64,000 nucleotides of DNA from Clytia hemisphaerica. Lineage: Eukaryota > Cnidaria > Hydrozoa > Leptothecata > Clytiidae. Below are positions 3,786 through 61,401 of the stretch, in pieces. The notes below the pieces were generated by a model that saw only the letters and a list, made by a program, of their open reading frames with translations, did no database searches and was not told the origin of the DNA. The stretch covers positions 1-64,000 of the forward strand of contig CACVBU010000737.1 in assembly GCA_902728285.1 (NCBI GenBank). Reading direction: 5' to 3'. The first letter of the stretch is position 1. Every line of letters starts with the position of its first letter. The position numbers and the translations under genes are program-made.

Positions 3786-6777
3786 TCATCTTTGTTCAAC
3801 AATCTTGAGATTCGTCGTACATCTCATGATGAAATTACATGGATGACGATCAACAGAACCAATTATTCCTTCCTTGATGATGAGGATGATGTTACTCCAC
3901 TCAAAACCGGAAATTAAATTATAGCCATCAATCAATAAAATGTTTCCGTCTACAAGATATTGATATGGACTTTCACCTTCATTGAAATCGTTTTTATCTT
4001 TTCCATTTCAATTTCATCGTTTTCAATGTTTGAAAATGATCATCCTCCTCGAATACAAAATTAGATATCACTAGCACTCCTTCTTTCGTGACCTTTCTCA
4101 TTTCTTTGATGGCATCTTCAAACGAGCTGAAAGGGTAGGGTTGCTTTCCATTAGGGTGATTCGGTGGTGGAAGTACTAAACCCTCTTTATATGGCGAATT
4201 GTCTCTTTCTTCATAGCTTAATGCCTCTCTAACGATACTTTCACAGTTTCTTAAATTCACGTCAAGTCCGAATTTCATGAAATCGTCATACACCGAAAAA
4301 TCTTGATCACCTGATAAAAGATCCTGATGACCAAATCCGTCTGATGCAATCCAAATCACATCAACGTGTTGTTTGACTTTCATTATCACTTCTTTCCATT
4401 GATTATCGGTAATATCACACTCATCGATAAATAACGCTTTGATGTTTCCCGTTCGAATCCTTTTCGTCAGCTTTTCAGTTTCCTCTTTATTCTTTTCATC
4501 GATATCGGTAATGCCGAACTGTTTGTAAGAAAAGAAAGATATTATTTTAAGTAAATCTGTTCATTTGCATGCAAAGGATCCTAAAAGTCTCTTACGGAAA
4601 ATGCACGATAAAATTTTAATTGAACTATCGTTTCTGACTTTTCTTCAATAATACCAGTAAGCTTAAAATATTTACAGTATTAATAGTAGATCAGTTCAAT
4701 ATTAGTTTTATAAAGTTGTTTCATTTTTCAAATTCAAAATGGTCACTCAGTCTCTCATACATAAAAAGCCTAATTTTTGGCACACTTGGGAATTAGAAGT
4801 TTTTTTTTGCCGAATAGAAAAAAATGCAATAAACAAACCATGAATCTGCGTTGACATCAGTCTTAAAACGATCTCAATTTTCTTTTACTTTTACTGCTCT
4901 TTTCAGTTATTCTACGATATCGTTTGTAATCAATAAAACAATATATTTTAACATATTTTGCAGGCGATCATTCAACCAAAGCCGTTTTTATTCAGTTAAA
5001 ATTAGAAAATGATTCAATTTAGATTCAAAATGCAACTTACGTAGTGCAGGATGTATCCATAGACGTCGACTCCATGTTCTTTTCCCAATTCGTCTTTCAA
5101 TCTCCATTCAAGAAGGGTTTCTAAATGAAAACTCTTCTGAATGACATACATAACACGTCCTTTGTACTTCTTCATTCCACTCAATTGTTTTGCTTTCTCC
5201 TGAAGGATGAAAGACTTTCCGCATCCGTAAGGGGCATAAAAGAGGATCTTATTGAATTCAGAAGTGTCTTTCTTCATGATGGGAAGTTGACGCTGACTGT
5301 AAAAGAGTATGTTGTCAGTAGTGCAGACGGTATCGATGGCTTGCGAGATATACTCCACCCAGTTCGATGTCGTAATGGGTGCTGTTTTTGAAGCATGAAT
5401 TGCAAACACAACGATTCTCAGGAGGTCTTTAACTTGATTTACTGCTGGGATGAAAGGTATTCCAGAGGGAACGGACGGATATTTTGCCAACAAGGTGGAT
5501 AACCAACATTTCAAATCTGTTTCTTGGTCAATGTAATGTTGATTGTTGAAGAAAAGGTCATCCCTTTCAACACATATGACTGGATGATACGTCCAGCCAT
5601 GTCCCAACTGATCACTCAATCTCTCCTCTATCAACTTATGGTATTTATCCAACTGGTCAAAAGCTTTTATAGTCAGTGTCCGTTTGATTTCAACGCCTAT
5701 GATTAATTTCTTGGTCCACGAGAAAAGAAGGACGTCAATCTCCTGATGCATTTTCTTTTGGACATTGGTGAGAAAATTGATGGAACTGAGAATCACAGTA
5801 TCTTGAAGAACAGGGTCGTCTTTGAGGGAATAGAGTTTGCGAAAGAATGAGTGTTCTCCTTTTTCACCAAGCTCCGATAGAACTAATCCGAAAAGCCATT
5901 TTATTGTGGGATGGGATGGTGGGTTTTGTTTGACCAAGTTTTCGACTTCTTCTTTAACGTCTTTTAACGTCTGGAACTAAAAGATTTTTTATAATTCAAT
6001 TTGTAAATTGAAATATTCAATTTAATACAGGTCTCCATGTGCTTGTATTAAAGAATTTTTACAGTTTTGAGACTAAAATTGATAAGTTACCTTTTTGAGA
6101 GTTTGTTCCAGTTTTGATCCTGGTGATTTTGAAGCCAATTCCTGAATACATGCTTGGATGAATGTGTTGTTGTCCTCTGTTGTTGATGGTAAGTTCAGAT
6201 CGTTTGTACTTGGTTGACGAGAGCAGCATAACATTCTGAAAGAACTTTGGATCGGTTGATTGCCAATCTCTTCCATCAAAAGATACATGATTTTGACATT
6301 CAAGATCCAATTATAGAATTCTCTTGCGTTGATCTCATTACCGCTAGAGTTGTTTAATTGGAGATCATAGAAAGCTTGAAGTTCTCCCGTAAACCAATAG
6401 TCCTTCTTCAAATTATCCAAACATTTCTTGAGAGTGTTTATGTCAACATCGAAATCAAGGAGATGTGAGGTTGAATCCTTCTTCGCGTATTGGTGTGATT
6501 GAAAAACTGGGGGAATATATATAGGGTCGTGGCGATTGGTGTCGAATAGTGCTGAATCAGCATACTCTCTTAAGAGAAGCTGATCAGCGGCAAGAATAGG
6601 GTCGTTAAATAACTGACCATTCCCGAGGTTGAACTTTCGGTTTTGTTTGTCGATGGTGGATTGTGCATTTGTCAATATTTGATGATATAATGACGTTTGC
6701 GGGGTGCATTTTGATGGATCGATAATCTTCGATTTCAATGCAGCGATTTTCTGTTGAAAATTCAATTGTGATGCCAT
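3786..6777 (-). pseudogene. NERD-like nuclease / SF1-helicase-like gene, copy 1 (decayed)
   Basis: Three exons read right to left: 6091-6777, 5041-5970 and 4518 down to about 3786, with GT-AG introns at the same places as in the intact copies. Exon 2 is fully open (310 codons) and keeps the nuclease residues ([20 protein letters not shown]) and the Walker A APYGCGKS. Exon 3 keeps ALFIDEC, then loses 11 bp near 3996 just after LKWKR, which shifts the frame into an immediate stop. The downstream frame ([15 protein letters not shown] onward) stays recognisable but has a further frameshift and a nonsense change before the acidic tail. Exon 1 is rearranged: about 18 residues after DNLKKD are missing and about 17 extra residues including CCSRQPS are present. 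Intron 1 is only 120 bp. Called a pseudogene because the C-terminal helicase motifs cannot be read in one frame. Confidence 0.8.
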
Positions 6778-8786
6778 TTTGAATCTGAATAAAAGTTTTA
6801 CTTGAATTAAAAGTCAAAAAATTGCTCAAAACTTGTAGAAACACACATAAACATCAATGTTTATCAAGTAAAAAAGCATTTAATTTTCCGCCCTTGTATT
6901 ACTCAGTGTCATTTGCTTCCAATCAGGGGGTAACAAACAATAAAATAGATCAAAATCGTGATCTTAGATGGAGAGTTATTTTACTTTATAAAGAATTTGT
7001 TGTGAATAAAAGTTCTCTATCTGCATGTTGTCAACATGTTTTGTCTAAAGTATACGAAAAAAGAAATTGATCTTATAAACCCCCTGCCATAGATTCTTTT
7101 TATAAACATAAATAACTCTCTCGAGGTATCTAAGGCACCCTTTGACTTAGAAATATTTGTTTAGGGGGTACATAATGACTAGCAAGATAATATCATACAG
7201 TAAGACGGAGATTTTATTTGCCTTATTAAGAGCTTGTTGTAGATAAGGGTTCTCAAACTATACGTTGTTCACATTGTATTTTGTCAAAATGTATGGCTAA
7301 AGACAATTAAAATGATTATATAAACCCCCTATCTTAGTTTCCTTTTACCAACGTTAATACCAGCTTACTCAAAGTTACCAATGCACCATTTGACTCTGAA
7401 TTATTGGTTCCTCCTCAGGGGTAGAGTATTATTTTGAGGACTAGAATTTATGATAAAGATGGAGATTTTATTTTCCTTATTAAGAATTTGTTGTGGATAA
7501 AAGTTCTCTAGCCGCCTGCTTTCAACAATTATATAACCCCCCTATCATAGTATCTTTCGGTAAACTTTGTATGAATATCTATTCAACTTTAATCTTATAA
7601 TTATTTGTTCCTTATTAAGAGAGTAAACTATAATTAGAGGGCTTAGGAGGCTTAGAACATTCCCAAGGAGGGTGATTTCATTTTCCTTATTAAGACATTG
7701 TTGTGGCTAAAAGTTCTCCTACTCCTGCATGTCTCCAACAGTATGTTTTTTCTAAAATGTAAGACTAAACCTTTTGAAAAGGATAATCTAAATCTGATAA
7801 ATATACTTAATAGACCAAAGGTATTGAAAAGGCTTATCTTGACCTCCTAATTCTTTTTATCGAATCCAATACCTTTTATTAAAAGCTTTCTAAAGGTATC
7901 TAGGTGTTTTATTAGCCTATTAATTATCGCTAAGCCCACACATTACTTGCTTTTTTATAAGAATGGTGTTTTTTTTCATTTCATGATAGATATTCTTAAA
8001 TTTTTGGGAAAAATCATCCTATGATGATTACAGTATTCTTAAGTTAGGACCCTAATTCAAACTAGATTTAACATTTAATTCATACGTCTAAAGCGTAAAA
8101 TGGCCTGTTTGTGAAAGTAGCGAGCCTTACTTCGGTGTAATTTACAATTTATCTATTGAAAATGCTCTAAAAATGGCATTCTTAGCTTCAGTTACCTGAT
8201 TGCCCATGATAGTTGTAATCTTCTTAGCATCTTCTTAATTTTTTGTCAAATTTCATCATGTATATAAAGTATAATTCTTATTAAAAAAAGCGTATAATTC
8301 TTATATGGAGGGATTTTTAATATTATTCCCAGGCACTCTACTTATTCGGTTTTACTTTAAGTGGGAAGTGTAAACAATTTACAAGGGGAACTATGTAAGA
8401 ACATAACGCTTCGTTGGAAAAAATATTAAGAACAAGCTAGAAAAAAATTTTCAGCTCTGCGCAGACTCTAAAATAAACACCCAATTTCTTAGGACATTGC
8501 ACAAATGTACTCAACAAATGATAAAAGTAAATGTATCAAGACTATTTTTAAAAAATATCTTATGTCTTCAAAAGTTTTGGATGTTCTTTTGAAAAAAACG
8601 TGTGTATATTATGTATTATATTATGAGGCATCATTTATAGAATTTAATTAGATTAATTAGACTCTAATTCTTTTTAAATACATAACCGAATTAACAAACT
8701 TCTGCAATAATCTTTCTCTCAAGCATGTTTGATCGTAAATAAACCAGTTTTTTGTTGTGATTGCATAGAAATGTTTCCGTGTCCCC
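6778..8786. repeat. 5' flank of copy 1: degenerate ~250-bp tandem repeats
   Basis: Upstream of the start codon the motifs 'TTGTGGATAAAAGTTCTCT', 'ATAAACCCCCTATCTTAG' and 'AAGGTATCTAAGGCACC' recur in the same order about every 200-250 bp (about 6990, 7230, 7480, 7690), so this region is an old tandem duplication. The block is conserved 5' of all four copies. A CAGATTC acceptor-like site sits just before the ATG, so a 5' UTR intron is possible but unproven. No other gene is seen. Confidence 0.65.
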
Positions 8787-14440: not shown

Positions 14441-15127
14441 TATATTAAAAAAAGGCGTACAATTTTTATTTGAAAGGCTTTCAGTAATTAAATTAACAAA
14501 AGTAAAACAAAAGCTAATATATTTTCTTCTCCAGTAAAATTTCACCCAACGAAATAGACCCTTGATTTAATTCAGAAATTCAGTTATCAAAGACGACGAG
14601 AGTTTTTGATGACATTTTTGTTGTTTATAAATAATGTTGGAATATAAAGATAAACGTTCAAATTGAAAGTTGAAATAAAATTTAGTAAAACAAATAGTTT
14701 TTTGATGACAAGAAAAAACATTTACATTAATTTTGTAAGTGAAAAAATATTTTTACAAATAGTTTCTAAAAATTAAAAAAAAGCGTAAGATATGTTAATA
14801 GTCTACATTTTTTTATAAAAACGTTAAAAGATTTTGAAGCCTCTTAGATGCTCTTAAACTTTTAGGGTTAAAACTTTGAAATGATTTTCCATCCATTTTG
14901 TTTACATATATGCATAAAAGTTGCAGATTTAAGAGCTTGAGTAAGCCAATAAGAAAAACGATGTTGCTTAAAAAAATACACAATTGGTGACTCCATTTCG
15001 GTATCAAAGAAAATATTTGTTTCTTTAAAATGATAAAATGTAACAAAAACTGAAATAATTATCTCGAAAATTCTATGTACTAAGTTCAAAGATTATGATT
15101 AATTATTTAAGTCTTAGTCTTTTAAGT
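14441..15127. repeat. 3' flank of nuclease-helicase copy 2
   Basis: Continuous copy of the block that is interrupted by transposons in unit 1 (270-3720). It therefore supplies the empty sites for the 2.1-kb element and for the hAT-like MITE. No gene seen. Confidence 0.75.
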
Positions 15128-18100
15128 TTAATCATCAGAAGAATCGTCACTATCGGTTTCATCTAAAGAATCGCCACTATCGGTTTCATCTGAAGATACT
15201 TCACTATCGAAAATTCTTCTTTCATCAACAATCATGAGATTCGTCGTGCATCTCATGATGTAATTACATATATGGCCATCAAAATCACCCGGGTATGCTC
15301 CCTTGATGATGATGATGTTATTCCATTCAAAACCGGAAATTAAATCATAGCCCTTAATCAATAAAATGTTTCCGTCTACGAGAAATTGATATGGACTTTC
15401 ACCTTCATTGAAATCGTTTTTGTATATGCCATACCTTTTCCATTTCAATTGCAACTTGTTCAATGTTTGAAGATCATCATCATCCTCGTATGGAATATCA
15501 TATATCACTAGCACTCCATCGTTCGCGATCTTTCTCATTTCTGTGATGCCGTTTTCAAATGAGTCGGAATGGTAGGGTTGTTTTCCATTAGGGTGATTCG
15601 GTGGTGGAAGTACTATCCCTTCTTTATAGAGCGAAGTTTTTCTTTCTTCAAATGCCTCTCTAACGATACTTTCACAGTTTCTTAAATTTACGTCAAGTTC
15701 ATATTTCATGAAATCGTCATACATCGAAAGATCTTCATTACCTTTTAAAAGATCCCGATGACCGTACCCGTTTGATGCAATCCAAATCACATCAACGTGT
15801 TCTTTGACTTTCATTATCATATCTTTCATTGGATTATTGGGAATATAACACTCATCGATGAATAACGCTTTGATGTTTCCCGTTCGAATCCTTTTCGTCA
15901 GCTTTTCAGTTTCCTCTTTATTCTTTTCATCGATATCGGTAATGCCGAACTGTTTGTAAGAAAAGAAATATATTATTTTAAGTAAATCTGTTCATTTGCA
16001 TGCAAAGGATCCTAAAAGTCTCTTACGGAAAAATGCACGATAAAATTTTAATTGAACTATCGTTTCTGACTTTTCTTCAATAATACCGGTAAGCTTAAAA
16101 CATTTACAGTATTAATAGTATATCAGTGCAATATTAGTTTTATAAAGTTGTTTCATGTTTTAAATTCAAAATGGTCACTCAGTCTCTCATACATAAAAAG
16201 CCTAATTTTTGGCACACTTGGGGATTAGAAAGTTTTTTTCCGAATAGAAAAAATGCAATAAACAAACCATGAATCTGCGTTGACAACAGTCTTAAAACGA
16301 TCTCAATTTTCTTTTACTTTTACTGCTCTTTTCAGTTATTCTACGATATCATTTATAATCGATAAAACAATGTATTGTAACATAGTTTGGAGTCAATCGA
16401 TCAATCAAAGCCGTTTTTTTAGTTAAAATTAGAAAAAGATTCAAAATTAGATTCAAAATGCAACTCACATAGTATTCTCTGTATCCATAAACCTCAACTC
16501 CATGTTCTTTTCCCAATTTGTCTTTCAAACTCCACTCGAGAAGGGTTACTCTGCTATCATCATCCCTCTCAATGACATACATAACACGTCCTTTGTATTG
16601 CGCCATTTCACTCAATTGTTTCGCTTTCTCCTGAAGGATGAATGACTTGCCGCATCCGTAAGGGGCATAAAAGAGGATCTTATTGAATTCAGAAGTGTCT
16701 GTCTTCATGATGGGAAGTTGACGCTGACTGTAAAAGAGTATGTTGTCAGTAGTGCAGACGGTATCGATGGCTTGCGAGATATACTCGACCCAGTTTGACG
16801 TTGTAATGGGTGCTGTTTTTGAAGCGTGAATGGCAAACACAATTATTCTTAGGAGGTCTTTAACTTGATTTACTGCTGGGATGAAAGGTATTCCAGACGG
16901 AACGGTCGGATATTTTGCCAACGCGGTGGATAACCAACATTTCAAATCTGTTTCTTGGTCAATGTAATGTTGATTGTTGAAGAAAAGGTAGTCCTTCTCA
17001 ACAAAAATGGCTGGATGGTACGTCCAGCCTTGTCCCAATTGATCACTCAATCTCTCTTCTATCAATTTATGGTATTTATCCAACTGGTCAAAAGCTTTTA
17101 TATTTAGTGTCCGTTTGATTTCAATGCCTATGATTAATTTCCTGGTCCACGAGAAAATAAGGACGTCAATCTCCTGATGCATTTTCTTTTGGACATTGGT
17201 GAGAAAGTTGATGGAACTGAGAATCACAGTATCTTGAAGAACAGGATCGTCTTTGAGGGAATAGATTTTTTCAAAAAATGAGTGTTCACCTTTTTCACCG
17301 ACCTCCGATAGAACTAATCCGAAAAGCCATTTTATTGTTGGATGGGATGGTGGGTTTTGTTTGACCAAGTTTTCGACTTCTTTTTTAACGTCTTTTAACT
17401 TCTGGAAATGAAATTAGGGATTAAAAAAAACTTTACTCTTTGAAAGCGATGGATTCCATCGAGGTGTACAAACGAATTCTTTCTTTTACTGAACTATATC
17501 AACCTGGAATAAACTGTCAAAAATTGTCGCTGAGGCAAAACCAGTCAAAGTATTCAAAGAGACAAAAAGATTCGACACAAGACAATTGACAATAATAATC
17601 ACGATCAGCTTCAGGTCCTCTTTCACCTAGAACTTTTTTACCTTAGGATTTTTATAAATTTCGAGAAACAAATTGTTGATAAGTTACCTTATTTTTAAGA
17701 GTTTGTTCCAGTTTTGATCCTGGTGATTTTAAAGCCAATTCCTGAATACATGCTTGGATGAATGTGTCTTTGTCCTCAGTTGTTGATGGTAGAGTTATAT
17801 TGACTGTTTCCAACTCTTTGACCATTAGATACTTTATCTTTACATTGAGAATCCAATTACTGAATTCTTTTCCATTGATTTCCCTGTTAGTGTTGTTTTC
17901 TTGCAATTCAGAGAAAGCTTGAAGTCCCTTTGTTAACCAATGGAGATAATGGAAATATTGAAGCTCACGTGTGAACCAATGGGCTGGCGAATCCTTCTTC
18001 AAATTATCCAAACATTTCTTAAGAGTGTTTATGTCAACATCGTAGTCAAGGAGGTGTACGGTTGAATCCTTCTTCGCGTATTGGTGTGATTGGAAAACCG

Positions 18101-18368
18101 GGGGAATAAATACAGGATCATGGCGGTTGGTGTTGAATAATGCTGAATCAGCATACTCTCTTAAGAGAAGCTGATCAGCGGCAAGAATAGGGTCGTTAAA
18201 TAACTGACCATTCCCGAGGTTGAACTTTCGGTTTTGTTTGTCGATGGTGGATTGTGCATTTATCAATATTTGATGATATAATGACGTTCGCGGGGTGCAT
18301 TTTGATGGATCGATAATCTGCGATTTCAGTGCAGCGACTTTCTGTTGAAAATTCAATTGTGATGCCAT
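15128..18368 (-). CDS. NERD-like nuclease / SF1-helicase-like protein, copy 2 (intact)
   Basis: Three exons, right to left: 17688-18368, 16469-17401 and 15128-15949, all phase-0 GT-AG, giving about 811 aa. Residues 1-227 (exon 1) are an unrecognised, mostly helical region. Exon 2 holds a NERD-like PD-(D/E)XK core: conserved Glu in GEKGEHSFF (about 266), Asp in QEIDVL (about 306), and E-x-K in IEIKR (about 321/323). It ends with the Walker A APYGCGKS (Lys about 479). Exon 3 holds Walker B ALFIDEC (Asp-Glu about 570/571), IWIASNG (motif III position), [10 protein letters not shown] (like SF1 motif IV), ISGFEW (motif V) and [10 protein letters not shown] (motif VI). A run of Ser/Asp/Glu ends the protein. 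The expected activity is DNA or RNA cleavage coupled to an ATP-driven motor. Family role in animals is unknown to me. No signal peptide or membrane segment, so probably intracellular. Confidence 0.85.
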
Positions 18369-20090
18369 TTAGAATAAGAATAAAAGTTTTTCTCGAATTA
18401 AAAGTCAAAAAATTACTCAAACCTTGTAGAAACACACATAAACATCAATGTTTATCAAGTAAAAAAGCATTTACTTTTCCGCCCTTGTATTACTCAGTGT
18501 CATTTGCTTCCATTCAGGGGGTAACAAACAATAAAATAGATCAAAATCGTGATCTTAGATGGAGAGTTTTTTTACTTTATAAAGACTTTGTGTGGATAAA
18601 AGTTCTCTACCTGCATGTTGTCAACTTGTTTTGTCTAAAATATACGAAAAAAGATATTGATCTTATAAACCCCCTGCCATAGATTCTTTTTATAAACATA
18701 AATAACTCTCTCGAGGTATCTAAGGCATCCTTTGAATATTTGTTTCTTATTTAGGGGGGTACATTATGACTAGGAGGATAAGACCATTCACTAAGACGTA
18801 GATTTTATTTGCCTTATTAAGACTTTGCTGTTGATAAAAGTTCTCCAACTGCATGTTTTCAATAGCATATTTTGTCAAAATGAATTACTAAAAACAATTA
18901 AAATGATTATATAAACCCCCTATCTGAGTTTCTTTATTACAAACGTTAATACTATAGCCGCATGTTTTCAACAATTATATAATCCCCTATCATAGTATCT
19001 TTTGGTAAGCTTCAATACTATTGTATGAATATCTATTCAACTTTAATCTTATAGTTATTTGTTCCTCGCTAAGATGATAAACTATAATTAGAGGGATTAG
19101 GAGGCTTAGAACATTCCCCAAGGAGGGACATTTCATTTTCCTTATTAAGAATTTGTTGTGGCTGAAAGTTGTCTCCAACAGTATGTTTTTTTTGTAAATG
19201 TAAGACCAAAGGTATTGAAAAGGATAATCTAAATCTGATAAATATACAATACCTTTTATTAGGAGCTTTCTAAAGGTATCTAGGGTGTCTTCTTAGACTG
19301 TTAATTATCGCTAAGCCCACAAATTACTTGCTTTTTTATAAGAATGGTGTTTTTTTTCATTTCATGATAGATGTTCTTAACTTTTTGGGGAAAAAAATCA
19401 TCCTAGAATATTCCTACAGTATTTTTAAGTTAGGACCCTAATTCAAACTAGATTTAACATTTAATTCATACGTCTAAAGCGTAAAATGGCCTGTTTGTGA
19501 AAGTAGCGAGCTTTACTTCGGTGTAATTTACAATTTATCTATTGAAAATGCACTAAAATGGTATTTTTAGCTTCAGTTACCTAATTGCCCATGATAGTGA
19601 TAGTCTTAGCATTTTCTTAATTTTTTGTCAAATTTCATCATGTATATAAAGTATAATTCTTATTAAAAAAGGCGTGTAATTGTTTGATGAAAACTGTTAT
19701 ATGGAGGGATTTTTAATATTATTCACAGGCACTTTACTTATAAGTGGGAAGTGTAAACAATTTACAGGGGGAACTATGTAAGAACATAAGGCTTCGTTGG
19801 AAAAAATATTAAGAACAAGCTAAAACAAAAATTTAAGCTCTGCTCAAACTCAAAAGTTTTGGATTTTCTTTTGAAAAAAACGTGTGTATAATATATTATG
19901 TATTAGATAAGGCATCGTTTATAGAATTTAATTAGACTAATTAGACTCTAATTCTTTTTAAATACATAACCGAATTGACAAAGTTCTACAATAATCTTCA
20001 TCTCAAGCATGTTTGATCGTAAATAAACCAGTTTTTTGTTGTGATTACATAAAAATGTTTCCGTGTCCCCTTAGCATTGAATTCATATTC
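18369..20090. repeat. 5' flank of copy 2
   Basis: Homologous to 6778-8786, with one or more of the ~250-bp repeats deleted. The terminal ~100 bases (AATAATCTTC...GTTTCCGTGTCCCC) lead directly into the minisatellite in units 1-3. A segment near 19330-19460 is one arm of an inverted repeat whose partner is at about 27170-27275. Confidence 0.65.
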
Positions 20091-21340
20091 AACCATACAT
20101 CCCTGTATAAGTGACCATACACCCCTGTATAAATGACCATACATCCCTGTATAAGTGACCATACACCCCTGCATAAGTGATCATACATTCCTGTATAAAT
20201 AACTATACACCCCTGTATAAGTGACCATACACCCCTGTATAACTGACCATACACCCCTGTATAACTGACCATACACCCCTGGTATAAGTTACCATACACC
20301 CTGTATAAGTGACCATACACCCCTGTACAAGTCACCATACACCCCTGTATAAGTGACCATACACCCCTGGTATAAGTGACCATACACCCCTGTACAAGTG
20401 ACCATACACCCCTGTATAAATGACCATACATCCCTGTATAAATGACCATACACCCCTGTATAAGTGACCATACACCCCTGTATAAGTGACCATACACCCC
20501 TGTATAAGTGACCATACACCCCTGGTATAAGTGACCATACACCCTGTATAAGTGACCATACACCCCTGTACAAGTCACCATACACCCCTGTATAAGTGAC
20601 CATACATCTCTGTTTAAGTGACCATACATTCCTGTATAAATAACTATACACCCCTGTATAAGTGACCATACACCCCTGTATAACTGACCATACACCCCTG
20701 TATAAGTGACCATACACCCCTGGTATAAGTTACCACACACCCTGTATAAGTGACCATACACCCCTGTACAAGTCACCATACACCCCTGTATAAGTGACCA
20801 TACACCCCTGGTATAAGTGACCATACACCCCTGTACAAGTGACCATACACCCCTGTATAAATGACCATACATCCCTGTATAAATGACCATACACCCCTGT
20901 ATAAGTGATCATACATCCATGTATAAGTCACCATACACCCCTGTACAAGTCACCATACACCCCTGTATAAGTGACCATACACCCCTGGTATAAGTGACCA
21001 TACACCCCTGTACAAGTGACCATACACCCCTGTATAAGTGAACATACACACCTGTATAAGTGACCATACGTCCCTGTACAAGTAATCATATATCCCTGTA
21101 TAAGTGATCATACATTCATGTATAAGTTACCATACATCCCGGTTTAAGTGATCATCCATCCCTGTTTAAGTGACCATACATCCCTGTGTAAGTGGCCATA
21201 CATCCCTCTATAAATGAACATACATCCTTGTATAATTGATAATACACCCCTGTATAAGTAACCATACATCCCTGTATAAGTGTTCATACACCCCTATATA
21301 AGTGATCATGCACCCCTTTTTAAACTACCATTCATCGTAG
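20091..21340. repeat. 22-bp minisatellite, unit 2
   Basis: Same 22-bp monomer family as unit 1, about 1.25 kb. Higher-order structure is visible: the variant CCTGTATAAATAACTATAC occurs at about 20190 and 20630, and the run CACCCTGTATAAGTGACC followed by CTGTACAAGTCACC recurs at about 20296, 20541 and 20737. Variants become more degenerate after 21060. Minus-strand frames are open for up to 281 codons because of monomer composition. Confidence 0.95.
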
Positions 21341-22035
21341 TTTAAATGGCTAGTGAATAATTGATGAAACATCCCTGTATATATAACCCAAGGAACCTTT
21401 AAGAAAAATTAACTAAATCATAACCCCTATTTAAGAGTTCAGTAGCTTCTTAAACATATTTTAGAAACACAGTGAACTTGTTTTTTAATTTGGAATAGAG
21501 CAGTTTTTTGAAAAGAAATATCTACTGCACATTAGATTAGAAATTGATTTCCGATGGGATATGAACCTTAAAAATTAGGACTGTTAACTTTTGAATCTAG
21601 AATAAGGACGAGAATTTGAATTATTTTTGACTAAATGTACATCAAGGTTTTCTCCCGCCAGGGGTTTTTAGCGGGTCACTGCATATTTATCATTATTGAC
21701 CCAAAAAAATAATATGAAATCGAATTTGATCTTGGAATAGATTTATTCAATCCATTGCAATCCTATTTTCCAAATTTAAGTCATCATTGCCATTCAACTA
21801 AAAGTATGACTTACATTCAGAATTCTCTTTCATGAGATTGACATTTTAACTCTCTCTATGTATTGTTTGGCGATCTAAAATTTCTTTATTTTCTTTATTA
21901 CGGCTTTCCTTTCACATCGGACAAACACTCGCTAGGCGACAACGTTTTCAAATATTTCTCAATCTTATCAAAAATAGAATCGAGCCTCAGGGAGGGGGAG
22001 GTACTATGGCTAAATTGTTATCAGATATGTGTAAA
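21341..22035. repeat. Conserved spacer, unit 2 (left part)
   Basis: Homologous to 51090-51650 in unit 3 (for example 'GGAACCTTTAAGAAAAATTA'), and absent from unit 1, where the minisatellite runs directly into the next block. No gene seen. Confidence 0.6.
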
Positions 22036-22752
22036 CATAGTATAAGAAAGCCGCGGCTGGAATATGTACCGCATTGTCTTTTCAGTTAATTGCTGTTCCA
22101 TCTCTGTCTCCGAGCTTTATAAGAACATCAAGATTGTCAGTTTATTATTGGTAAATAGTTTTTGAAATTTTTCTCTTATTTTCCTTCACAAGAAGATTTT
22201 TTATTTCTAGATATCTTTGAATCTGTACCCAATGAAACACTTTAACTGATTTTGGACATATTTTAGAGGTATTTTGTGGAAACGATACTTTTTCGCCAAA
22301 ATTAAAATTATAAGAACTATATTTAAGATGACAACTTTCCTGTCAGTTTGAATGATAAATTTTGAAGACGCTGGCTTGAAATTTTCACAGAGTTATCTTG
22401 ATGTACTATTTCATTGATTTCTAGAAAGATTTCACTGAAATATTGTGAAGGCATTTCGAGGCACCTTATTAATTTTTGAGTTCTTTCAGCCCAGCCATTT
22501 TGTGCTTGTTTAAATTTCTTATTGTTGATCTTTCCTGCACAATGATATTATAATGCAAGTGTATTATCAAGGGCATATAATTAATGTCTAAAACGCACTG
22601 CGAAGTAAGTATTAACGACAAACTAATAAAGTTTACCATTAAAGATGCTACACTACATATTTCTTGATCAACAAATAGTCATCAAATACGACAGAGATAG
22701 AACAGTAGAAATTCAGATGTTATCATTCCAGCCGCGGCTTTCTTATACTATG
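22036..22752. mobile_element. 717-bp TIR element with 7-bp target duplication
   Basis: Ends are inverted repeats beginning CATAGTATAAGAAAGCCGCG. The flanks are GTGTAAA at 22029-22035 and 22753-22759; unit 1 has the uninterrupted site near 10565. Internal sequence GACAGAGATAGAACA near the right end also occurs in the 745-bp element at 50110-50854, so these two are one family. No transposase frame, so non-autonomous. Confidence 0.85.
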
Positions 22753-23844
22753 GTGTAAAGAAGGGTCCCTTTTGTAAACCCTTAGAAGTCTCTCAAATGG
22801 GTACAGAGGAGGATATATTAGGAATCGACTCTCTGAAAGGGTCCCGAAATTACGAAATTACTCCATCAAAGGGTCATAAACTTTGGTAATTCTGAGCCAA
22901 ATTTTTGAAAAATAGTCTTTCAAAGGGTCACATAAATGTCAAAATTCACTCTCTCAAAGACTCGAATTTGTTGTTTGGATATACCCGTCAATTTATAAAC
23001 CTAGTACCCCTCCTAAAAAGAGCTCTCTAATTGCCGTATCTAATCCGTCTTTTTATTAAGTCTCTTTTTAACCATTTTAATTGTTGCTATATCCTTGATA
23101 ATCTATTTGACATGTTTTGCTATCTTTTCAACAATGATGTATTAAGGGATTATATTTTTAGTGAAATTCGTCTGCAACGTTTGAAATACGTTTGTTTAAT
23201 GTTAGTTAAATGTCTGGGAAAATTCGCTTCACCGCCAGAAGTACATTTTCCCAAAGGGCTTGCTAAGAAATCGCTGATCTAGAATCTAGAGCTGGAAAAA
23301 GTTAATTTTTTATTCGCCATCAATTTGAAAACAAAGAAAAATGCATAAATGCAATGAAAACAAAAGCCTGAGGGGCTACAAATGAATCTAATAAACCTTT
23401 CACCGAAGAAAAATCTTTTAGCTATCAAACATTAAAAGTTATGACAAAAATTTATTAAGAAAATCGTTTATCAAACGTTACTTTTTTTTGCCCTTTCTGT
23501 CCGACCCACCGACAAGACGTCGGTGCGAAACTTTTTTTTTCAAAAAAGTGAAAAACTTCAGGACTCAAAGAGTTAAGAATAAAATTAAGTTATACTTCTA
23601 TCTTTTAATTCCTGAAAAGTATGATTTGAATTCAGTGATTTCCACCTGAATCTGTACAGGCTGCACGTTGCCTTCGCATCAACGCCAAATTGAAAAAAGA
23701 TTTAATATCCCTAGATAAGAGAAATTGAACCAATCAAAAAAAAAAGAAAAACCTCCTCTGTAACCTCAGTCTCCTAGATGGCTGTATATGCCTAAAATCG
23801 TCGAGGCGATCCAACCAAGAAGCAACAGCCTTTCCCAGATGGTT
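22753..23844. repeat. Conserved spacer, unit 2 (right part)
   Basis: Homologous to 10570-11105 and 51670-52600. Includes 'TCCGACCCACCGACAAGACG' (23510 and 52420). No gene seen; the 83-codon frame at 23031-23282 is not kept in the other units. Confidence 0.6.
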
Positions 23845-24191
23845 ATACCTTAAGGGAACTTTTTTTATTGAAAACTAATTTTGACGAGCGGCAAGAATCC
23901 TGAAAATTTTTAATTTGGGCGAGAACTTATTTTGGTGATTGATGAATTTTTTTTATTTTGGCGGGCTGTGGCGGGAACTAATTTTGGCGAATGACAGCCG
24001 AAGTCTGTTCTCTCTTGCCTTATTTGAAGCTTTTCTTGTGAAATCAAAAAGTTATTTAGACAAATACCAAAAGATTTAGTTTTGGGCGTGAACTTCTTTT
24101 GGCGAGAGGGCAAAATAATTAATTTTGGCGGGGGCTAATTTTAGCAAATTTTGTCTAAATTTGCCGAATTCGCCAAAAGTACCTTAAGGTA
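23845..24191. mobile_element. TTTGGCGAA-rich MITE with ACCTTAAGG ends, unit 2
   Basis: Ends read ATACCTTAAGG on the left and CCTTAAGGTAT on the right. The interior is a string of variants of 'AATTTTGGCGGGAACTAA' and its complement. The same insertion is present in unit 3 at 53112-53432, so it predates that duplication. A relative lies at 35216-35787. Confidence 0.65.
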
Positions 24192-24238
24192 TATGCCTTA
24201 ATTTATCGATAGTTATTTAAGATATGTTCTTCATTCAG

Positions 24239-25379
24239 GTGATCCAGAAATGCTTTACGAATCAGTTCACTCAAAAATTTTCTTGCTGCCGGAAGATTTT
24301 CATTTATATCCAGCTCACGATTATAAAGGTATGACATGTTTTTTGAGAAAAAAAGCAAAAATGTTTGAGTGTTTAAGTATAAAACATTCTGTAGTAAACC
24401 AATAGAGCACTAATCATTTTTTCTTGAATTCGACAAATTTCTTTCGTTTTTGAACGAAGCTCATTGTAGGGCTTTTACCAACTCTAAAGAAAAACAAATA
24501 TGATGTAATCTTTCTTTGTTGACCAATGAGAACTTGTTATTTCGCATCAGGACATCACGTGACCACTGTTGCCGAAGAAAAATCTTTGAATCCTCGATTA
24601 ACCAAAACGAAAGAAGAATTTGTTCAACTTATGAAAAACCTTGGTCTCGCCTACCCGAAAAATATAGGTATGAAAAAATGTTGAAACCTTCTGAATGAGA
24701 ATTGTTCAAAACAAATTTTGCTTCTGATATGTCTAACCCATTTGTTAGATAAGGGAGTTAATTTAAACTAAAAAATGCTTTTTTGGACCTACCCTAATGG
24801 AGGTCCTTTAATTTAACCAATGTCTGTTCGTTCTTCTGTTTTTTATGAGCTCTTCCCTCGAGATTCGTTCATTAGTTTTTTCTGATTTGATGCAAAATGG
24901 AATTGCCCAAAATGTGACGGAGCCAAAAACATTTTCTCGTCTCATTAATTGAATCTTTATTCATAAAAATCACTATTTTTAAGCATTCATCTATGTTCTT
25001 AGCCAAATTACTCAATTTTTTGATGAGATAGATATTCTTTTCCTTCCAATCCCATCCCATAGTACCGCCCAATGGGCACGGGGGACAATCAGTGATGAAA
25101 ATAAACGACGAATTTTAGTAAATGGTAACTATTTGTGTTCCGAATGATTGTTTTAATGGTCACTCTCACATACATCTTAATTATATATGTGTTAAATGGA
25201 TAATCAGGTAGGTCCATAAAAGTATCACTTGTCGATCTTTTGATCAATCTACGGTTGTTGTATTATATCGTTAACAATTATATTCTTCAAATTTCTTTTT
25301 TCTAGATGAAGCTGTTCCTTGGAATATGAAATGCGGACCAAGTCAGTTAGGTCAATTACGTATGGATGGTGGTGAATAA
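24239..25379 (+). pseudogene. ETHE1: ETHE1 3' gene fragment (last three exons), unit 2
   Basis: Three plus-strand exons: 24239-24328 ([14 protein letters not shown], then YPAHDYK), 24551-24667 ([20 protein letters not shown], then [10 protein letters not shown]) and 25306-25379 (DEAVPWNMKCG to a TAA). Acceptor/donor pairs are good and phases match (1, 1). The LYxSVHxxIF, YPAHDYxG and NPRLT motifs are diagnostic of ETHE1, the sulfur dioxygenase that oxidises glutathione persulfide in mitochondria. The PAHDY histidine/aspartate belongs to the metal site, but the HxHxDH metal motif lies in upstream exons that are not present: upstream is a MITE, spacer and minisatellite. I therefore call it a duplicated 3' fragment, not a working gene. 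The exons remain open, which suggests recent duplication or gene conversion. Confidence 0.85.
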
Positions 25380-41463: not shown

Positions 41464-44400
41464 TTAATCATCGGAAGAATCGTCACTATCGGTTTCATCT
41501 GAAGAAAATTCTTCTCCGTGAACAATCATGAGATTCGTCGTACATCTCATGATCCAATTACTTGGATGGAAATCAAAAGTACCCATGTGTTCTTTCACGA
41601 TGATGATGATGATGTTATTCCATTCAAAACCGGCAATTAATCTATAGTCCTCAATCAATAAAATGTTTCCGTCTACGAGATATTGATAAGGACTTTCACC
41701 TTCATTGCAATCCTTTTTGAATGCTCCATACCTTTTCCATTTCAATTTCATCTTGTTCAATGTTTGAAGATGATCATCCTTCTTGTATGGAGAACCATAC
41801 ATCACTAGCACTCCATCGTTCGTGATCTTTCTCATTTCTTTGATGACATCTTCAAATGAGTCGGAATAGTAGGGTTTCTCTCCGTCAGGGTAGTTTTGTG
41901 GTGGAAGTACTAAACCAGCTTTATAGTGCGAACTGTCTCTTTCTTGAAAGCGTAATGCCTCTTTTACTATACTTTCACAGTTTCTTAAATTCACGTCAAG
42001 CTCATATTTAATGAAATCGTCATACACCAAAAAATCTTCACCAACTGATAAAATATCGAGATGACCCTCCCCATTTGATGCAATCCAAATTACCTCAACG
42101 TGTTGTTTGACTTTCATTATCATTTCTTTCCATTGATTATTGGTAACCCTACACTCATCGATGAATAATGCTTTGATGTGTCTTGTTCGAATCCTCTCCA
42201 TTAGCTTTTCAATTTCCTCTTTATAGATCTGTTTGATATAAAATATTATTTTGAGTAAATCTCTTCATTTGCATACAAAGGCTCATAAAAGTCTCTTACG
42301 GAAAAATACACGATAAAATTTTAATTGAACTATTGTTTCTAACTTTTCTTCAATAATACCAGTAAGCTTAAAACATTTACAGTATTAATAGTAGATCAGT
42401 TCAATATTAGTTTTATAAAGTTGTTTCATTTTTTAAATTCAAAATGGTCACTCATTCTCTCATACATAAAAAGCCTAATTTTTGGCACACTTGGGAATTA
42501 GAAATTTTTTTTGCCGAATAGAAAAAACGCAATAAACAAACCATGAATCTGCGTTGAAAACAGTCTTAAAACGATCTCGATTTTCTTTTACTTTTACTTT
42601 TTCTTATCGGTTATTCTACGATATCATTTGTAATCAATAAAACAGTATATTGTAACATAGTTTGCAGGCAATCAATATAACATAGTTTGCAGGCAATCAA
42701 TCAATCAAAACCGTTTTTATTTAGTTAAAATTAGAAAATGATTCAATTTATATTCAAAATGCAACTTACGTGTTTTCTGTATCCATAAATCTCAACTCCG
42801 TGTTCATTTCCCAATTCATCTTTCAATCTCCATTCAAGAAGGGTTTCTATATCATAACCCCTCTCAATGACATACATAACATGTCCTTTGTATTGCGCCA
42901 TTCCACTCAATTTTTTTGCTTTCTCCTGAAGGATGAAAGACTTGCCGCATCCGTAAGGGGCATAAAAGAGGATCCTATTGAATTCAGAAGTGTCTGTCTT
43001 CATGATGGGAAGTTGATGCTGACTGTAAAAGAGTATGTTGTCAGTGGTGCAGACGGTATCGATAGCTTGCGAGATATACTCGACCCAGTTTGACGTTGTG
43101 ATGGGTGCTGTTTTTGAAGCGTGAATTGCAAACACAACGATTCTTAGGAGGTCTTTAACTTGATTTACTGCTGGGATGAAAGGTATTCCAGAGGGAACGG
43201 TCGGATATTTTGCCAACACGGTGGATAACCAGCATTTCAAATCTGTTTCTTGATCAATATAATGTTGATTGTTAAAAGAAAGGTCGTCCTTTTCAACCAA
43301 AATGGCTGGATGGTACGTCCAGCCATGTCCCAATTGATCACTCAACCTCTCCTCTATCAATTTATGGTATTTATCCAACTGGTCAAAAGCTTTTATAGTC
43401 AGTGTCCGTTTGATTTCTACGCCTATGATTAATTTCTTGGTCCACGAGAAAATAAGGACGTCAATCTCCTGATGCATTTTCTTTTGGACATTGGTGAGGA
43501 AATTGATGGAACTGAGAATCACAGTATCTTGAAGAACAGGGTCGTCTTTGAGGGAATAGAGTTTTGCGAAAAACGAGTGTTCGCCTTTTTCACCGAGCTC
43601 CGATAGAACTAATCCGAAAAGCCATCTTATTGTTGGATGAGATGGTGGGTTTTGTTCGACCAAGTTTTCGACTTCTTTTTTAACATCTTTTAACGTCTGG
43701 AAATGAAAATTAGGGATTAAAAAAAAATTTCTCTTTGAAAGCGATGGATTCCGTCGAGGTGTACAAAAGAATTCTTTCTTTTCCTGAACTACCGGGTGTG
43801 TCAAAAAAAACGCCCCTATTTTACAATCTTTGACGTACATTTTTCTATTCAGTTGAACTGCTTGAATTTTTTTGTGAGTATTGTACATTTTATTTCCAAA
43901 CATTTCTAAAAGTTTGGCAGAGTTACCTCAAATGAATTTAAAGTTATGAATATTCTCGCAAGATCACTACTTTTTGTGTTGTTTACAGTAGCAATTAATT
44001 GACGTCAAAGAAGACGTCAAACCTTTACATTCTAGCTTTCCTATCAACTGTAAAAACCGTTTTAAAGTGAAATTGAAGTTTAAGCTACATGTAGAAGGGA
44101 ATATTCCTACTAAACCAAAAATTTTTGATGTCAAACTTATCTTTTTTTTAAATTAAAGGGGTTTTGGGAATCTTTTCGCAGTGTTATCGTAACATCTCAA
44201 GGTGTTCAAGGCAATGTAAAGCATTTCTTAGCAAAACAAATTTTCATCAATTCGTTTCATTTCCATTATTTAATCGATCATATTATATTATACAAGCTCT
44301 GTTCTGCTTCTTTAACATTTTGCAAAACAGTTGAACTGAAAACCTAAGTATTTTGATGTACAAAAGGTAATAACATCGGTTCATTTCTGCACCATTGACG

Positions 44401-45699
44401 ATTTGAAAGTATTTTTTTGTCGTCGCAATTGACGTTAAAAAATGGCTTGGTTGGAACTAGCTAGAATCTATCAAATATTGACCTTGGAACAAAACTTAAC
44501 CTATGAAATGAAAAAATGATGCCATTTTAATGTTTTAAAAGTAGCGAGACAAAATAAGAGCGTAAAAACGAAGCGTAGTTTAGTTCCTTGTTCCATATGG
44601 GAAAATTTAACTATGAAAATCCGTGAACAATGAAAAATTGACCTAAGTCAGCGGAATTATCATAAAGTCACTTTAAATGAACATACAAATGTATAATTTT
44701 CACCAAGGGTAAAAAATTAAATTCTAAATCTTCCCTAGAAATTTCATTTGTCTTCGTTCAATAGAAATTTGTACACCAAAAATAAAAAAATAGGCGCGTT
44801 TTTTTTGACACACCCGGTATATCAACCTAGAATAAACTGCCAAAAATTGTCGCTAAGGCAAAACCAGTCAAAGTATTCAAAGAGACAAAAAGATTCGACA
44901 CAAGACAATTGACAATAATAATCACGATCAGCTCCAGAGGTCCTCGTTCACCTAGAACTTTGTTACCTTAATAATGAATAGGTTTTTATAACTTTCGAGA
45001 AACAAATTATTGATAAGTTACCTTTTTGAGAGTTTGTTCCAGTTTTGAACCTGGTGATTTTAAAGCCAATTCCTGAATACATGCTTGGATGAATGTCTTT
45101 TTGTCCTCAGTTGTTGATGGTAGAGTCGTATTGACTGTTGCCAACTCTTTGACCATTAGATACTTGATCTTTAGATTAAGAATCCAATTGCTGAATTCTT
45201 TTCCATTGATCTCCTTGTCAGTTTTGTTTTCCTGCAATTCAGAGAAAGCTTGAAGTCCCTTTGTTAACCAATGGCGACAATGGAAGGATTGGAGCTCACG
45301 TGTGAACCAAAAGGCTGGCGAATCCTTCTTCAAATTATCCAAACATTTCTTGAGAGTGTTTATGTCAACATCGAAATCAAGGAGATGTACGGTTGAATCC
45401 TTTTTCGCGTATTGGTGTGATTGAAAAACTGGGGGAATAAATATAGGGTCGTGGCGATTGGTGTCGAATAGTGCTGAATCAGCATACTCTCTTAAGAGAA
45501 GCTGATCAGCAGCAAGAATAGGGTCGGTAAATAACTGACCATTCCCGAGGTTGAACTTTCGGTTTTGTTTGTCGATGGTGGATTTTGGATTTTTCAATAT
45601 TTGCTCATACAATGATGTTCGTGGTACGCATTTTGATGGATCGATAATCTTCGATTTCAATGCAGCGACTTTCTGTTGAAAATTCAATTGTGATCTCAT
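41464..45699 (-). CDS. NERD-like nuclease / SF1-helicase-like protein, copy 3 (intact)
   Basis: Exons, right to left: 45022-45699, 42770-43696 and 41464-42228, all phase 0, giving about 789 aa. It keeps every recognisable motif of copy 2: [15 protein letters not shown] and VEIKR for the nuclease; [31 protein letters not shown] and [10 protein letters not shown] for the helicase. Exon 3 starts [12 protein letters not shown] and lacks the ~10 residues ([10 protein letters not shown]) present in copies 1 and 2. Intron 1 is enlarged to 1.3 kb by a TA-flanked element (43792-44817); without it, it would be about 300 bp as in copies 2 and 4. The acidic tail is shorter. Splicing across the insertion is assumed, not shown. 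Confidence 0.82.
43792..44817. mobile_element. 1,026-bp Tc1/mariner-like non-autonomous element in intron 1 of copy 3
   Basis: Inverted repeats start CCGGGTGTGTCAAAAAAAAC; TA is duplicated on both sides (43790-43791 and 44818-44819). The paralogous intron in copies 2 and 4 reads TGAACTATATCAACC, the exact empty site. No transposase frame inside. Confidence 0.9.
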
Positions 45700-53432: not shown

Positions 53433-53474
53433 CTTAATTTATCGATAGTTATTTAAGATATGTTCTTCATTCAG

Positions 53475-56935: not shown

Positions 56936-57199
56936 ACACCCCTGTGTCACAGACCCGGTGGACCCCCCACCCCGGTGTAAAAATAGGCAAAAAATCGGCC
57001 AAAAATCGTCCCCGGTGGAAAAAATATCCTACAACTTCAACCCCACTGTCAAATTGCTCTAAAAAATGCACTCCAAAACCATCCCCACTAGAATTTTCGA
57101 GCTGGAAACAATAGATTTTCTATCCCCATTGGCATTTTGATAGAAATTTTCATACTCACTGAGGGAAAAAGTTCTACTGGGGCACTGAGACAGGGGTGT
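56936..57199. mobile_element. 264-bp MITE, 6-bp target duplication (ACACCCCTGT family)
   Basis: Ends ACACCCCTGTGTCACAGACC and TGAGACAGGGGTGT are inverted repeats, flanked by CAGCAG on both sides. Same family as 25723-25989. Copy 3's flank (about 40270-40540) lacks it. Confidence 0.85.
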
Positions 57200-58188: not shown

Positions 58189-61100
58189 TTAATCATCGGA
58201 AGAATCTTCAGTATTGGTTTCATCAGAAGAAATGTCACTATCGGTTTCATCTGAAGAAAATTTTTCTCCGTCAACAATCATGACAATCATGAGATTCGTG
58301 GTGCATCTCATGATGGAATTACATGGATGGTCATCAATAATTCCTGTTTCTCCTTTAAAGATGATGAGGATGATGTTACTCCACTCGAAGCCGGAAATAA
58401 GTTCATTGTCAATCAATAAAATGTTTCCGTCTACGAGAAATTGATATGGACTTTCACCTTCATTGAAATCGTTTTTATCTTCTCCATACCTTTTCCATTT
58501 CAATTTCATCTTGTCCAATGTTTGAAGATCATCCTTCTCGTATGGAATATCAGATATCACTAGCACTCCATCGTTCGTGATCTTTCTCATTTCTGTGATG
58601 GCATCTTCAAATGATTTGGAATGGTACGGTTGCTTTCCATTAGGGTGATTCGGTGGTGGAAATACTAAACCTTCTATATAGTACAAAGTTGTTTTTTCTT
58701 CAAAGCTTAATGCCTCTTTTACTATACTTTGACAGTTTCTTAAATTCACGTCAAGTTCATATTTTATGAAATCGTCATACAGCGAAAGATCTTCATCACC
58801 TGATAAAATACGCTGATGACCCAATCCGTTTGATGCAATCCAAATCACCTCAACGTGTTGTTTGACTTTCATTATAATTTCTTTCCATTGATTATAGGTA
58901 ACCTCACACTCATCGATGAATAATGCGTTGATGTGTCTTGTTTGAATCCTCTCCATTAGCTTTTCCATTTGCTCTTTTATTTTCTCTTCATCGAGCTGTT
59001 CGAAAGAAAATATTATTTCAAGTAAATCTCTTCATTTGCATACAAAGGATCATAAAAATCTATTACGGAAAAATGCACGATAAAATTTTAATTGAACTAT
59101 TGTTTCTAACTTTTCTTCAATAATACCGGTAAGCTTAAAACATTTACAGTATTAAGTGTAGATCAGTGCAATATTAGTTTCATTTTTTTAATTCAAAATG
59201 TTTACGTAGTCAGTCTCTCATACAAAAACAGCAAAAGTTTTCTCACTCTAGCAGATTTGAGCGTTTTTTTCGAATGAAAATGACACAATAAGCAAATCAT
59301 AAATCGGTGTTTATAACTTATAGGTTGTAGTCCTTAAACTGTCTCAATTTTCTTTTACTTTTACTTTTTCTTATCAGTTATTCTACGATATCGTTTGTAA
59401 TCAATAAAACAATATATTTTAACATAATTTGCAGGCGATCATTCAATCAAAGCCGTTTTTGTTCAATTAAAATTAGAAAATGATTCAACTTAGATTCAAA
59501 ATGCAACTTACATGGAAGACTCTGTATCCATAAACGTCGACTCCATGTTCTTTTCCCAATTCGTTTTTCAATCTCCACTCAAGAAGGGTTTCTAGATCAT
59601 CACTCCTCTCAATGCCATACATAACACGTCCTTTGTACTTCTTTATTCCACTCAATTGTTTTGCTTTTTCTTGAAGGATGAACGATTTGCCGCATCCGTA
59701 AGGCGCATAAAAGAGGATCTTATTGAATTCAGAAGTGTCTGTCTTCATGATGGGAAGTTGACGCTGACTGTAAAAGAGTATGTTGTCAGTGGTGCAGACG
59801 GTATCGATGGCTTGTGAGATATACTCCACCCAGTTCGACGTCGTAATGGGTGCTGTTTTTGAAGCATGAATTGCAAACACAACGATTCTCAGGAGGTCTT
59901 TAACTTGATTTACTGCTGGGATGAAAGGTATTCCAGAGGGAACGGACGGGTATTTTGCAAGCAAGGGGGATAACCAACATTTCAAATCTGTTTCTTGGTC
60001 AATGTAATGTTGATTGTTAAAAGAAAGGTCGTCCTTTTCAACCAGAATGACTGGATGGTACATCCAGCTTTGTCCCAATTGATCACTCAACCTCTCTTCT
60101 ATCAATTTATGGTATCTATTCAACTGGTCAAAAGCTTTTATAGTTAGTGTCCGTTTGATTTCAACGCCTATGATTAGTTTCTTGGTCCATGAGAAAAGAA
60201 GGACGTCAATCTCCTGATGCATTTTCTTTTGGACATTAGTGAGGAAATTGATGGAACTGAGAATCACAGTATCTTGAAGAACAGGGTCGTCTTTGAGGGA
60301 ATAGAGTTTTTCGAAAAACAAGTGTTCGCCTTTTTCACCCAAATCCGATAGAACTAATCCGAAAAGCCGTTTTATTGTTGGATGAGATGGTGGGTTTTGT
60401 TTGACCAAGTTTTCGACTTCTTTTTTAACATCTTTTAACGTCTGGAAATGAAATTAGGGATTAAAGAAAACTTCACTCTTTGAAAGTGATGGATTCCGTC
60501 CAGGTGTACAAACGAATTCTTTCTTTTACTGAACTATATCAACCTGGAATAAACTGTCAAAAATTGTCGCTGAGGCAAAACCAGTCAAAGTATTCAAAGA
60601 GACAAAAAGATTCGACACAAGACAATCGACAATAATAATCAAGGTCAGCTTTAGAGGCCCTCGTTCACCTAGAACTTTTTTTTACCTTGGGATTTTTATA
60701 AATTTCGAGAAACAAATTGTTACCTTTTTAAGATTTTGTTCCAGTTTTGATCCTGGTGATTTTGAAGCCAATTCTTGAATACATGCTTGGATGAATGTGT
60801 TTTTGTCCTCAGTTGTTGATGGTAGAGTTATATTGACTGTTTCCAACTCTTTGACCATTAGATACTTGATCTTTACATTAAGAATCCAATTGCTGAATTC
60901 TTTTCCATTGATTTCCTTGTCAGTGTTGTTTTCCTGCAATTCAGAGAAAGCTTGAAGTCCCTTTGTTAACCAATGGCGACAATGGAAGGATTGAAGCTCA
61001 CGTGTGAACCAATGGGCTGGCGAATCCTTCTTCAAATTATCCAAACATTTCTTGAGAGTGTTTATGTCAACAACGTAATCGAGGAGATGTACGGTTGAAT

Positions 61101-61401
61101 CCTTCTTCGTGTATTGGTGTGATTGAAAAACTGGGGGAATAAATATAGGATCGTGGCGATTGGTGTCGAATAATGCTGAATCAGCATACTCTCTTAAGAG
61201 AAGCTGATCAGCGGCAAGAATAGGGTCGTTAAATAACTGACCATTTCCGAGGTTGAACTTTCGGTTTTGTTTGTCGATGGTGGATTGTGCATTTGTCAAT
61301 ATTTGATGATATAATGACGTTCGCGGGGTGCATTTTGATGGATCGATAATCTTCGATTTCAATGCAGCGACTTTCTGTTGAAAATTCAATTGGGATTCCA
61401 T
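58189..61401 (-). CDS. NERD-like nuclease / SF1-helicase-like protein, copy 4 (small frameshift)
   Basis: Exons, right to left: 60724-61401, 59512-60441, and 58189 to about 58994. Nuclease and helicase motifs are all present ([61 protein letters not shown]), with the longest Ser/Asp/Glu tail of the four. Using the acceptor that matches the other copies (at 58995), exon 3 starts LDEE and then meets a stop, because there are two extra bases relative to copy 1 near 58975-58985. An in-frame alternative acceptor (AAAGAG before CAAATGGAAAAG, about 58971) would restore the reading frame with loss of about seven residues. So this copy may be functional or a young pseudogene. Confidence 0.75.

Follow-up and report, generated by a model that had tools for sequence, protein, structure and literature searches.

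What kind of protein is encoded by the gene that recurs, four times on one strand, near the start of contig CACVBU010000737.1 of the hydrozoan Clytia hemisphaerica? The window, i.e. the whole 64,000-nucleotide stretch analyzed here (positions 1 to 64,000 of the contig; assembly GCA_902728285.1), contains the gene, which has three exons, in four copies on the minus strand between positions 3780 and 61401. A reading of the window made from the sequence alone (hereafter the sequence-only reading) had proposed that the product joins a NERD-like PD-(D/E)XK nuclease to a superfamily 1 (SF1) helicase-like motor. Our analysis of the window and of related loci elsewhere in the genome leads us to think that the genes probably belong to a hydrozoan family of single-chain nuclease-helicases, homologous to prokaryotic NERD-SF1 proteins and acting on foreign nucleic acid.

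Homology to prokaryotic NERD-UvrD proteins

The relationship of the family to known enzymes is clearest when profile is compared with profile. The bridge set consisted of ten NERD-UvrD proteins, bacterial and archaeal, from plasmid records (L050 and L061 were fetched but left unused); the Arcobacter member is recognized by Pfam NERD (E = 3.8e-13), by SLFN-g3_helicase (7.8e-10) and by the PADLOC model C3a187, 'NERD+UvrD' (1.3e-22). On the animal side the profile was built from 32 of 43 gene models, from residue 228 onward; the eleven models left out either contain stops (copy 1, L036 and L041) or are short (L011, L013, L021, L023, L031, L035, L038 and L047). Alignment of the two profiles by hhalign gives a probability of 98.2 and E = 4.9e-14 over 456 columns at roughly 16% identity, and pairs the GE, EID, E-x-K, Walker A, DE, N-x-RN and G-(F/L)-E elements of the family with those of the prokaryotic proteins, in a match that spans from GExxE to motif V. 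The controls, which were reversed and shuffled profiles, are negative: E = 0.53 for the reversed family, E = 0.32 for the reversed bacterial profile, and a best probability of 0.4 in 40 column shuffles.

Both halves of the protein contribute to this match, with E = 5e-4 for the nuclease alone and 6e-14 for the motor alone, while crossed pairs give nothing. When registered alignments are scored against the bacterial profile (A7), the motor reaches 5.5e-13, exon 2 (alignment A2) 2.9e-10, and exon 3 without Walker A (alignment A1) 9.1e-6; the bacterial profile itself, run against PDB, finds PcrA/UvrD (8.9e-32), SLFN11 (2.8e-12) and GajB (3.2e-10). The proposed fusion of a NERD-like nuclease to a UvrD-like SF1 motor is thus borne out, and the nuclease together with the motor up to motif V is, as judged by profile similarity, homologous to prokaryotic NERD-UvrD proteins. 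The N-terminal region, which the sequence-only reading could not assign, indeed resists assignment over residues 1-227: it has no match in the bacterial profile by hhalign (probability 0.2), its own profile (A5) has no PDB match at E<=10, and against Pfam it yields scattered weak matches, the best at 8.6e-4 in 1 of 20 rows.

Copy 2, whose predicted product is 811 residues long, illustrates the arrangement (all coordinates on the minus strand). Exon 1 (17688..18368; residues 1-227) encodes the unassigned N-terminal domain, as delimited by sequence reading and the gene model. From sequence reading and hhalign, exon 2 (16469..17401; residues 228-538) encodes the NERD-like PD-(D/E)XK nuclease, a linker and motor motif I; within it lie the nuclease core at 17114..17299, located by column counts and hhalign pairing (GEKGEH with E263, QEID with D306, EIK with E321 and K323), and Walker A at 16643..16666 (APYGCGKS with K479). 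Exon 3 (15128..15949) carries SF1 motifs II (DE), III-like (WIAS), IV (NLRN), V (GFEW) and VI (MRCTTN, assigned by eye), followed by an acidic tail. The introns are GT...AG, with the junctions read directly.

The motifs that the earlier reading quoted are present and are not chance, given how nearly invariant their columns are in an alignment of the 43 gene models; some of these models are close paralogues and others are partial or broken, so that n varies from column to column. The PD-(D/E)XK signature residues GE, D and E-x-K occur in order, with E263 in 40 of 43 models, E304, D306 and K323 in 43/43 and E321 in 42/43; such near-invariance implies that catalysis seems to be needed. In the motor, Walker A K479 is kept in 41/42, D570 and E571 in 36/36, N626 and R628 in 36/36, G744 and F745 in 37/37, and R771, in the motif VI that was assigned by eye and lies outside the hhalign match, in 35/37. 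At the motif III position, Q follows WIA, WVA or WIV in some diverged members (L019, L022, L024, L025, L027 and L028), and copy 2 has G-Y-G-H.

Searches with single sequences and family profiles against named families (A5, N-terminal, 20 rows; A2, exon 2, 22 rows; A1, exon 3, 22 rows) give fainter signals. Among exon-2 members, weak Pfam matches fall on PD-(D/E)XK families, i.e. HSDR_N_2 (10/22), DUF4268 (7/22), HSDR_N (3/22) and NERD (3/22). PADLOC models match the 22 exon-2 members at E<=1 as Nhi (9/22, best 4.2e-5), AbiO (9/22, best 2.6e-5) and RTasNERD-Hel (2/22, best 7.4e-8), the last in the P-loop at profile positions 183-253 of 519; of ten members scanned singly, seven match Nhi or AbiO at E<=0.1, mostly in the nuclease at about positions 40-145 of 470 and once in the P-loop at 192-226. 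The best PDB match of the exon-3 profile A1 is GajB (E = 0.02, over motifs II-IV). Other searches named no family: Pfam scored only a HECT neighbor above cut-off in eight window frames, NCBIfam gave the window exons no family name, phmmer of exon 2 against PDB returned weak P-loop matches, and a PDB search with nine stitched motors (nine of twelve motor segments used) returned AAA+ or chance matches only. Scans of viral and prokaryotic contigs with A2 and with the Arcobacter protein confirmed none, and tblastn against plasmids and phages gave matches at E of 1 or more, among them the Arcobacter match that later served as a bridge.

Several of the results weigh against the assignment. The hhalign match stops short of motif VI. 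The cut-off of Pfam NERD, PF08378, is not reached by any exon-2 member (3/22 at E<=1, best 0.011), the same model finds nothing in the genome at E<=1, and Pfam recognizes no helicase family in the 22 exon-3 members. The P-loop of single exon-2 members is closer to DnaA (14/22, best 3.4e-5) and nSTAND_NTPase5 (10/22, best 3.9e-5) than to UvrD, and the two alignments that contain the P-loop, A2 and A6, match helicase loaders and DnaA when their profiles are run against PDB (best 0.0012 and 0.0077, respectively). At E<=0.1 PADLOC recognizes none of four proteins that are full or nearly so (L019, L009, L010 and copy 2). AlphaFold, run on four window rows, returned predicted local distance difference test scores of 39.8 (PD-(D/E)XK fold) and 41.4 (two RecA-like lobes); both predictions are uninformative, and the claims about folds therefore rest on sequence profiles.

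Selection on the nuclease and motor

If the family encodes working enzymes, how has selection treated their parts? The ratio of nonsynonymous to synonymous change (omega) was obtained from tree-based counts in the window clade (12 members) and a second clade (6 members). In the window clade omega is 0.32 for the N-terminal domain, 0.24 for the nuclease, 0.50 for motor part A and 0.78 for exon 3, and in the second clade 0.25, 0.30, 0.33 and 0.73; pairwise medians for the same four segments are 0.30, 0.22, 0.43 and 0.66 in the window clade and 0.22, 0.30, 0.23 and 0.47 in the second. The nuclease is under purifying selection. Ratios near 1 in all copies, part of what the sequence-only reading had named as evidence against itself, were looked for and are not what is seen, with the nuclease at 0.24 and 0.30 in the two clades.

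Within exon 3 the motif blocks are constrained (omega 0.34 in the window clade and 0.31 in the second), and the stretches between them have omega 1.30 in the window clade (p = 0.017). The strongest local signal there comes directly behind the motif III-like WIAS: residues 601-615 have omega 5.5 (p = 2.4e-4, or about 0.04 after Bonferroni correction, as the top of 154 overlapping windows of residues); in the second clade residues 751-765 reach 5.2 (p = 0.006). These values suggest diversifying selection in the stretches between motor motifs. The same between-motif stretches give 1.04 (p = 0.37) in the second clade, where residues 601-615 give 0.92, and these two values speak against diversification; relaxed constraint is also possible, since the motif blocks were drawn after the alignment had been seen and gene conversion is outside the model.

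Relaxed constraint after duplication is part of a different account of the family, by which it would be a lineage-specific set of nuclease-helicases for DNA repair or germline genome maintenance, of the RecBCD/AddAB/Dna2 kind, its copy number raised by drift or dosage and its exon 3 evolving fast under that relaxation. We consider this unlikely. In its favor, the solved structures that the bridging bacterial profile matches best are those of repair helicases (PcrA and UvrD), and omega for exon 3 stays under 1 as a whole (0.73-0.78), with a nearly neutral value (about 1.04) for the between-motif stretches of the second clade; the motif blocks, however, stay constrained (0.31-0.34) while the adjoining stretches change, and some 119 loci at 35-100% identity to the query are, by general knowledge, many for repair genes.

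Family size and arrangement in the genome

The size of the family was estimated in a 417-Mb, 951-contig assembly, in which the window lies on a contig of 69,825 bases. A mitochondrial contig of this assembly, picked out with the COX1 model, carries nad4, cob and cox1 in that order on one strand (nad4 and cob identified by eye) and uses TGA for tryptophan; the order is that of Hydroidolina and points to a probable hydrozoan source. Searches with two nuclease exons returned 115 and 132 matches, 117 of the 132 in the second listing being free of stops. Merging pieces less than 4.2 kb apart yields about 119 loci on 84 contigs, 35-100% identical to the query, a count that was compiled from the two listings and may miss distant members or include fragments. 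Allelic doubles are not evident among the 43 of about 119 loci that were checked, where none of the pairs aligning over more than 800 bases is above 94.2% in mean identity. Bacterial contamination is rejected, given the GT-AG introns of copy 2 and the presence of loci on 84 contigs, and the same observations bear out the earlier description of a multicopy, intron-bearing animal gene. The term 'tandem-amplified' from that description is apt for 38 of the loci, which form 14 clusters with neighbors within 60 kb, and fails for the 81 that are single at this cut.

Gene structure also differs from locus to locus. Intron positions vary: in many loci a single frame covers both of the first two exons, and in L019 a 645-codon frame encodes nuclease and motor together, without an intron inside the motor; this variation in intron number and place suggests intron gain or loss within the family. 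L028 and L042 show extra breaks, and the last open frame of L022 (3647-5089, 481 codons) extends well past the motor.

All four window copies are located, on the same strand and with three exons, as the earlier reading had placed them, except that copy 1 (3780..6777, minus strand) is not intact. Its exon 3 frame is broken by an in-frame stop after KWKR at about 3994, with motifs V-VI in a different frame, and it is probably a pseudogene, an assembly error being the alternative. Copies 3 (41464..45699, minus strand) and 4 (58189..61401, minus strand) are three-exon models free of stops. By window self-BLAST all copies are embedded in duplication blocks that reach into non-coding flanks; the block around copy 2 (14557..27446, no strand assigned) consists of coding and non-coding segments, with gaps, at roughly 70-95% identity to segments around the other copies. 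Retroposition of the window copies is rejected, given their common introns and common non-coding flanks.

These flanks also bear on whether the family is a mobile-element gene, i.e. a replication or transposition enzyme spread along with its element, an account that we find improbable. It fits the 81 of 119 loci that are single at the 60-kb cut; against it, the duplication blocks of the window carry the homology beyond the genes into non-coding flanking DNA, L039 and L041 have 5370 of 7001 bases in common although they sit on separate contigs, introns are retained, and the eight window frames scanned contain no transposase-like Pfam match, no search having been made for element ends or target-site duplications.

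Some further features of the window were noted. Each of the four copies has a 22-bp minisatellite (unit approximately GTGACCATACAYCCCTGTATAA) 1.7-2.3 kb upstream, inside the duplication block, with arrays at 8787-10496, 20092-21317, 48021-49897 and 63580-64000; it may aid unequal exchange, and no exact match was found in the 61 loci compared, where flanks are short. A 27-bp repeat at 15132-15209 and 58193-58259 forms the acidic Ser/Asp/Glu/Thr C-terminal tail of copies 2 and 4, and the tail of copy 3 is shorter. Between copies 2 and 3 there is a HECT-like ubiquitin ligase frame (31945-33366, minus strand; Pfam HECT, 1.1e-6) with a possible upstream exon at 34476-35186 (minus strand), and a tandem array at 28208-29526 has a 124-bp unit in 10.6 copies with 95% matches.

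Proposed function

What might such a protein do? The predicted chain comprises an N-terminal domain of a new type (about 227 residues), a NERD-like PD-(D/E)XK nuclease (about 200 residues) and a compact SF1A motor like those of UvrD, Schlafen and GajB. We envisage that the motor, driven by ATP, would load onto or travel along nucleic acid that is foreign or aberrant, such as viral replication intermediates or transposon DNA, and would feed it to the fused nuclease for degradation, much as has been proposed for bacterial Nhi, while the N-terminal domain might recruit or regulate the enzyme. The variable motor stretches and the many paralogues could then reflect an arms race with viruses or transposons. 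By analogy we infer a role in defense, and the family may be a large, fast-changing set of DNA-defense genes. That the chain is instead a nucleic-acid sensor or STAND-like switch, signaling through its N-terminal domain instead of destroying, would suit a conserved N-terminal domain (omega 0.25-0.32) that is absent from the prokaryotic relatives compared (probability 0.2) and the P-loop matches of single exon-2 members to nSTAND_NTPase5 (10/22, best 3.9e-5), but is very doubtful given nuclease residues that are near-invariant in 43 models and an exon 3 that, without the P-loop, matches UvrD-type motors.

Returning to a nuclease-helicase that acts on foreign nucleic acid, we tentatively suggest a more specific possibility, that a prokaryotic-type NERD-SF1 enzyme could have been turned into a cell-autonomous nucleic-acid immune repertoire of more than 100 members, with constant nuclease and ATPase motifs, diversifying recognition stretches in the motor and a new N-terminal control domain. 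Bacterial antiphage proteins are considered the ancestors of several animal immune proteins. If our interpretation is true, an animal NERD-SF1 family of about 119 loci, with catalytic residues kept in 43 models, adds an effector class to these antiphage-derived proteins, and offers a hydrozoan test case for antiphage-type nuclease-helicases acting on animal viruses or transposons. NERD-SF1 fusions are already known as a prokaryotic kind; what is added here is an intron-bearing animal version at some 119 loci, headed by a 227-residue N-terminal domain that resists assignment, and no such animal family is reported in the titles and abstract openings of open-license PubMed Central text among the matches listed.

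Comparison with known systems

Immune adaptor domains of cnidarians and brachiopods that are joined to RNases and helicases, in a setting of lineage-specific expansions, are described in PMC8195603, from whose main text the word NERD is absent. Among vertebrate proteins SLFN11 is reached by the bridging bacterial profile (2.8e-12 in PDB); the Schlafen group 3 helicase model PF09848 has no match in the genome at E<=0.01, and a general Pfam scan, not a search aimed at the Schlafen core, found no Schlafen core in the window exons. The vertebrate Schlafen group III proteins (SLFN11, SLFN5) combine an animal nuclease and an SF1 helicase in one chain, the nuclease being the Schlafen core, whose fold is different from PD-(D/E)XK. 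Gabija GajB resembles the family in its UvrD-like motor and is the best PDB match of the exon-3 profile (E = 0.02, motifs II-IV); its V-VI stretch is in register with the family exon 3 at a non-significant score of 2.3 bits. The Gabija nuclease, unlike that of the family, is a separate OLD/TOPRIM protein and not a fused PD-(D/E)XK domain.

Nhi (nuclease-helicase immunity) of Staphylococcus epidermidis and AbiO agree with the members that match them in the positions of nuclease and P-loop within PADLOC models of about 470 positions; they differ in being prokaryotic and antiphage, and the family scores against them are weak, with none for the four full or near-full proteins. In PMC10952713, NERD (PF08378) is assigned to Nhi-like and Mokosh type I systems, and according to PMC10732053 Nhi is activated by phage single-stranded DNA-binding protein, with degradation of phage DNA as the outcome. 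The prokaryotic NERD-UvrD proteins stand apart from the family in their low identity (about 16%), in lacking the animal N-terminal domain and, for the ten compared, in being single open frames; like the family, they carry the nuclease and then the SF1 motor in one chain, and the nuclease triad and motifs I, II, IV and V of the two can be paired.

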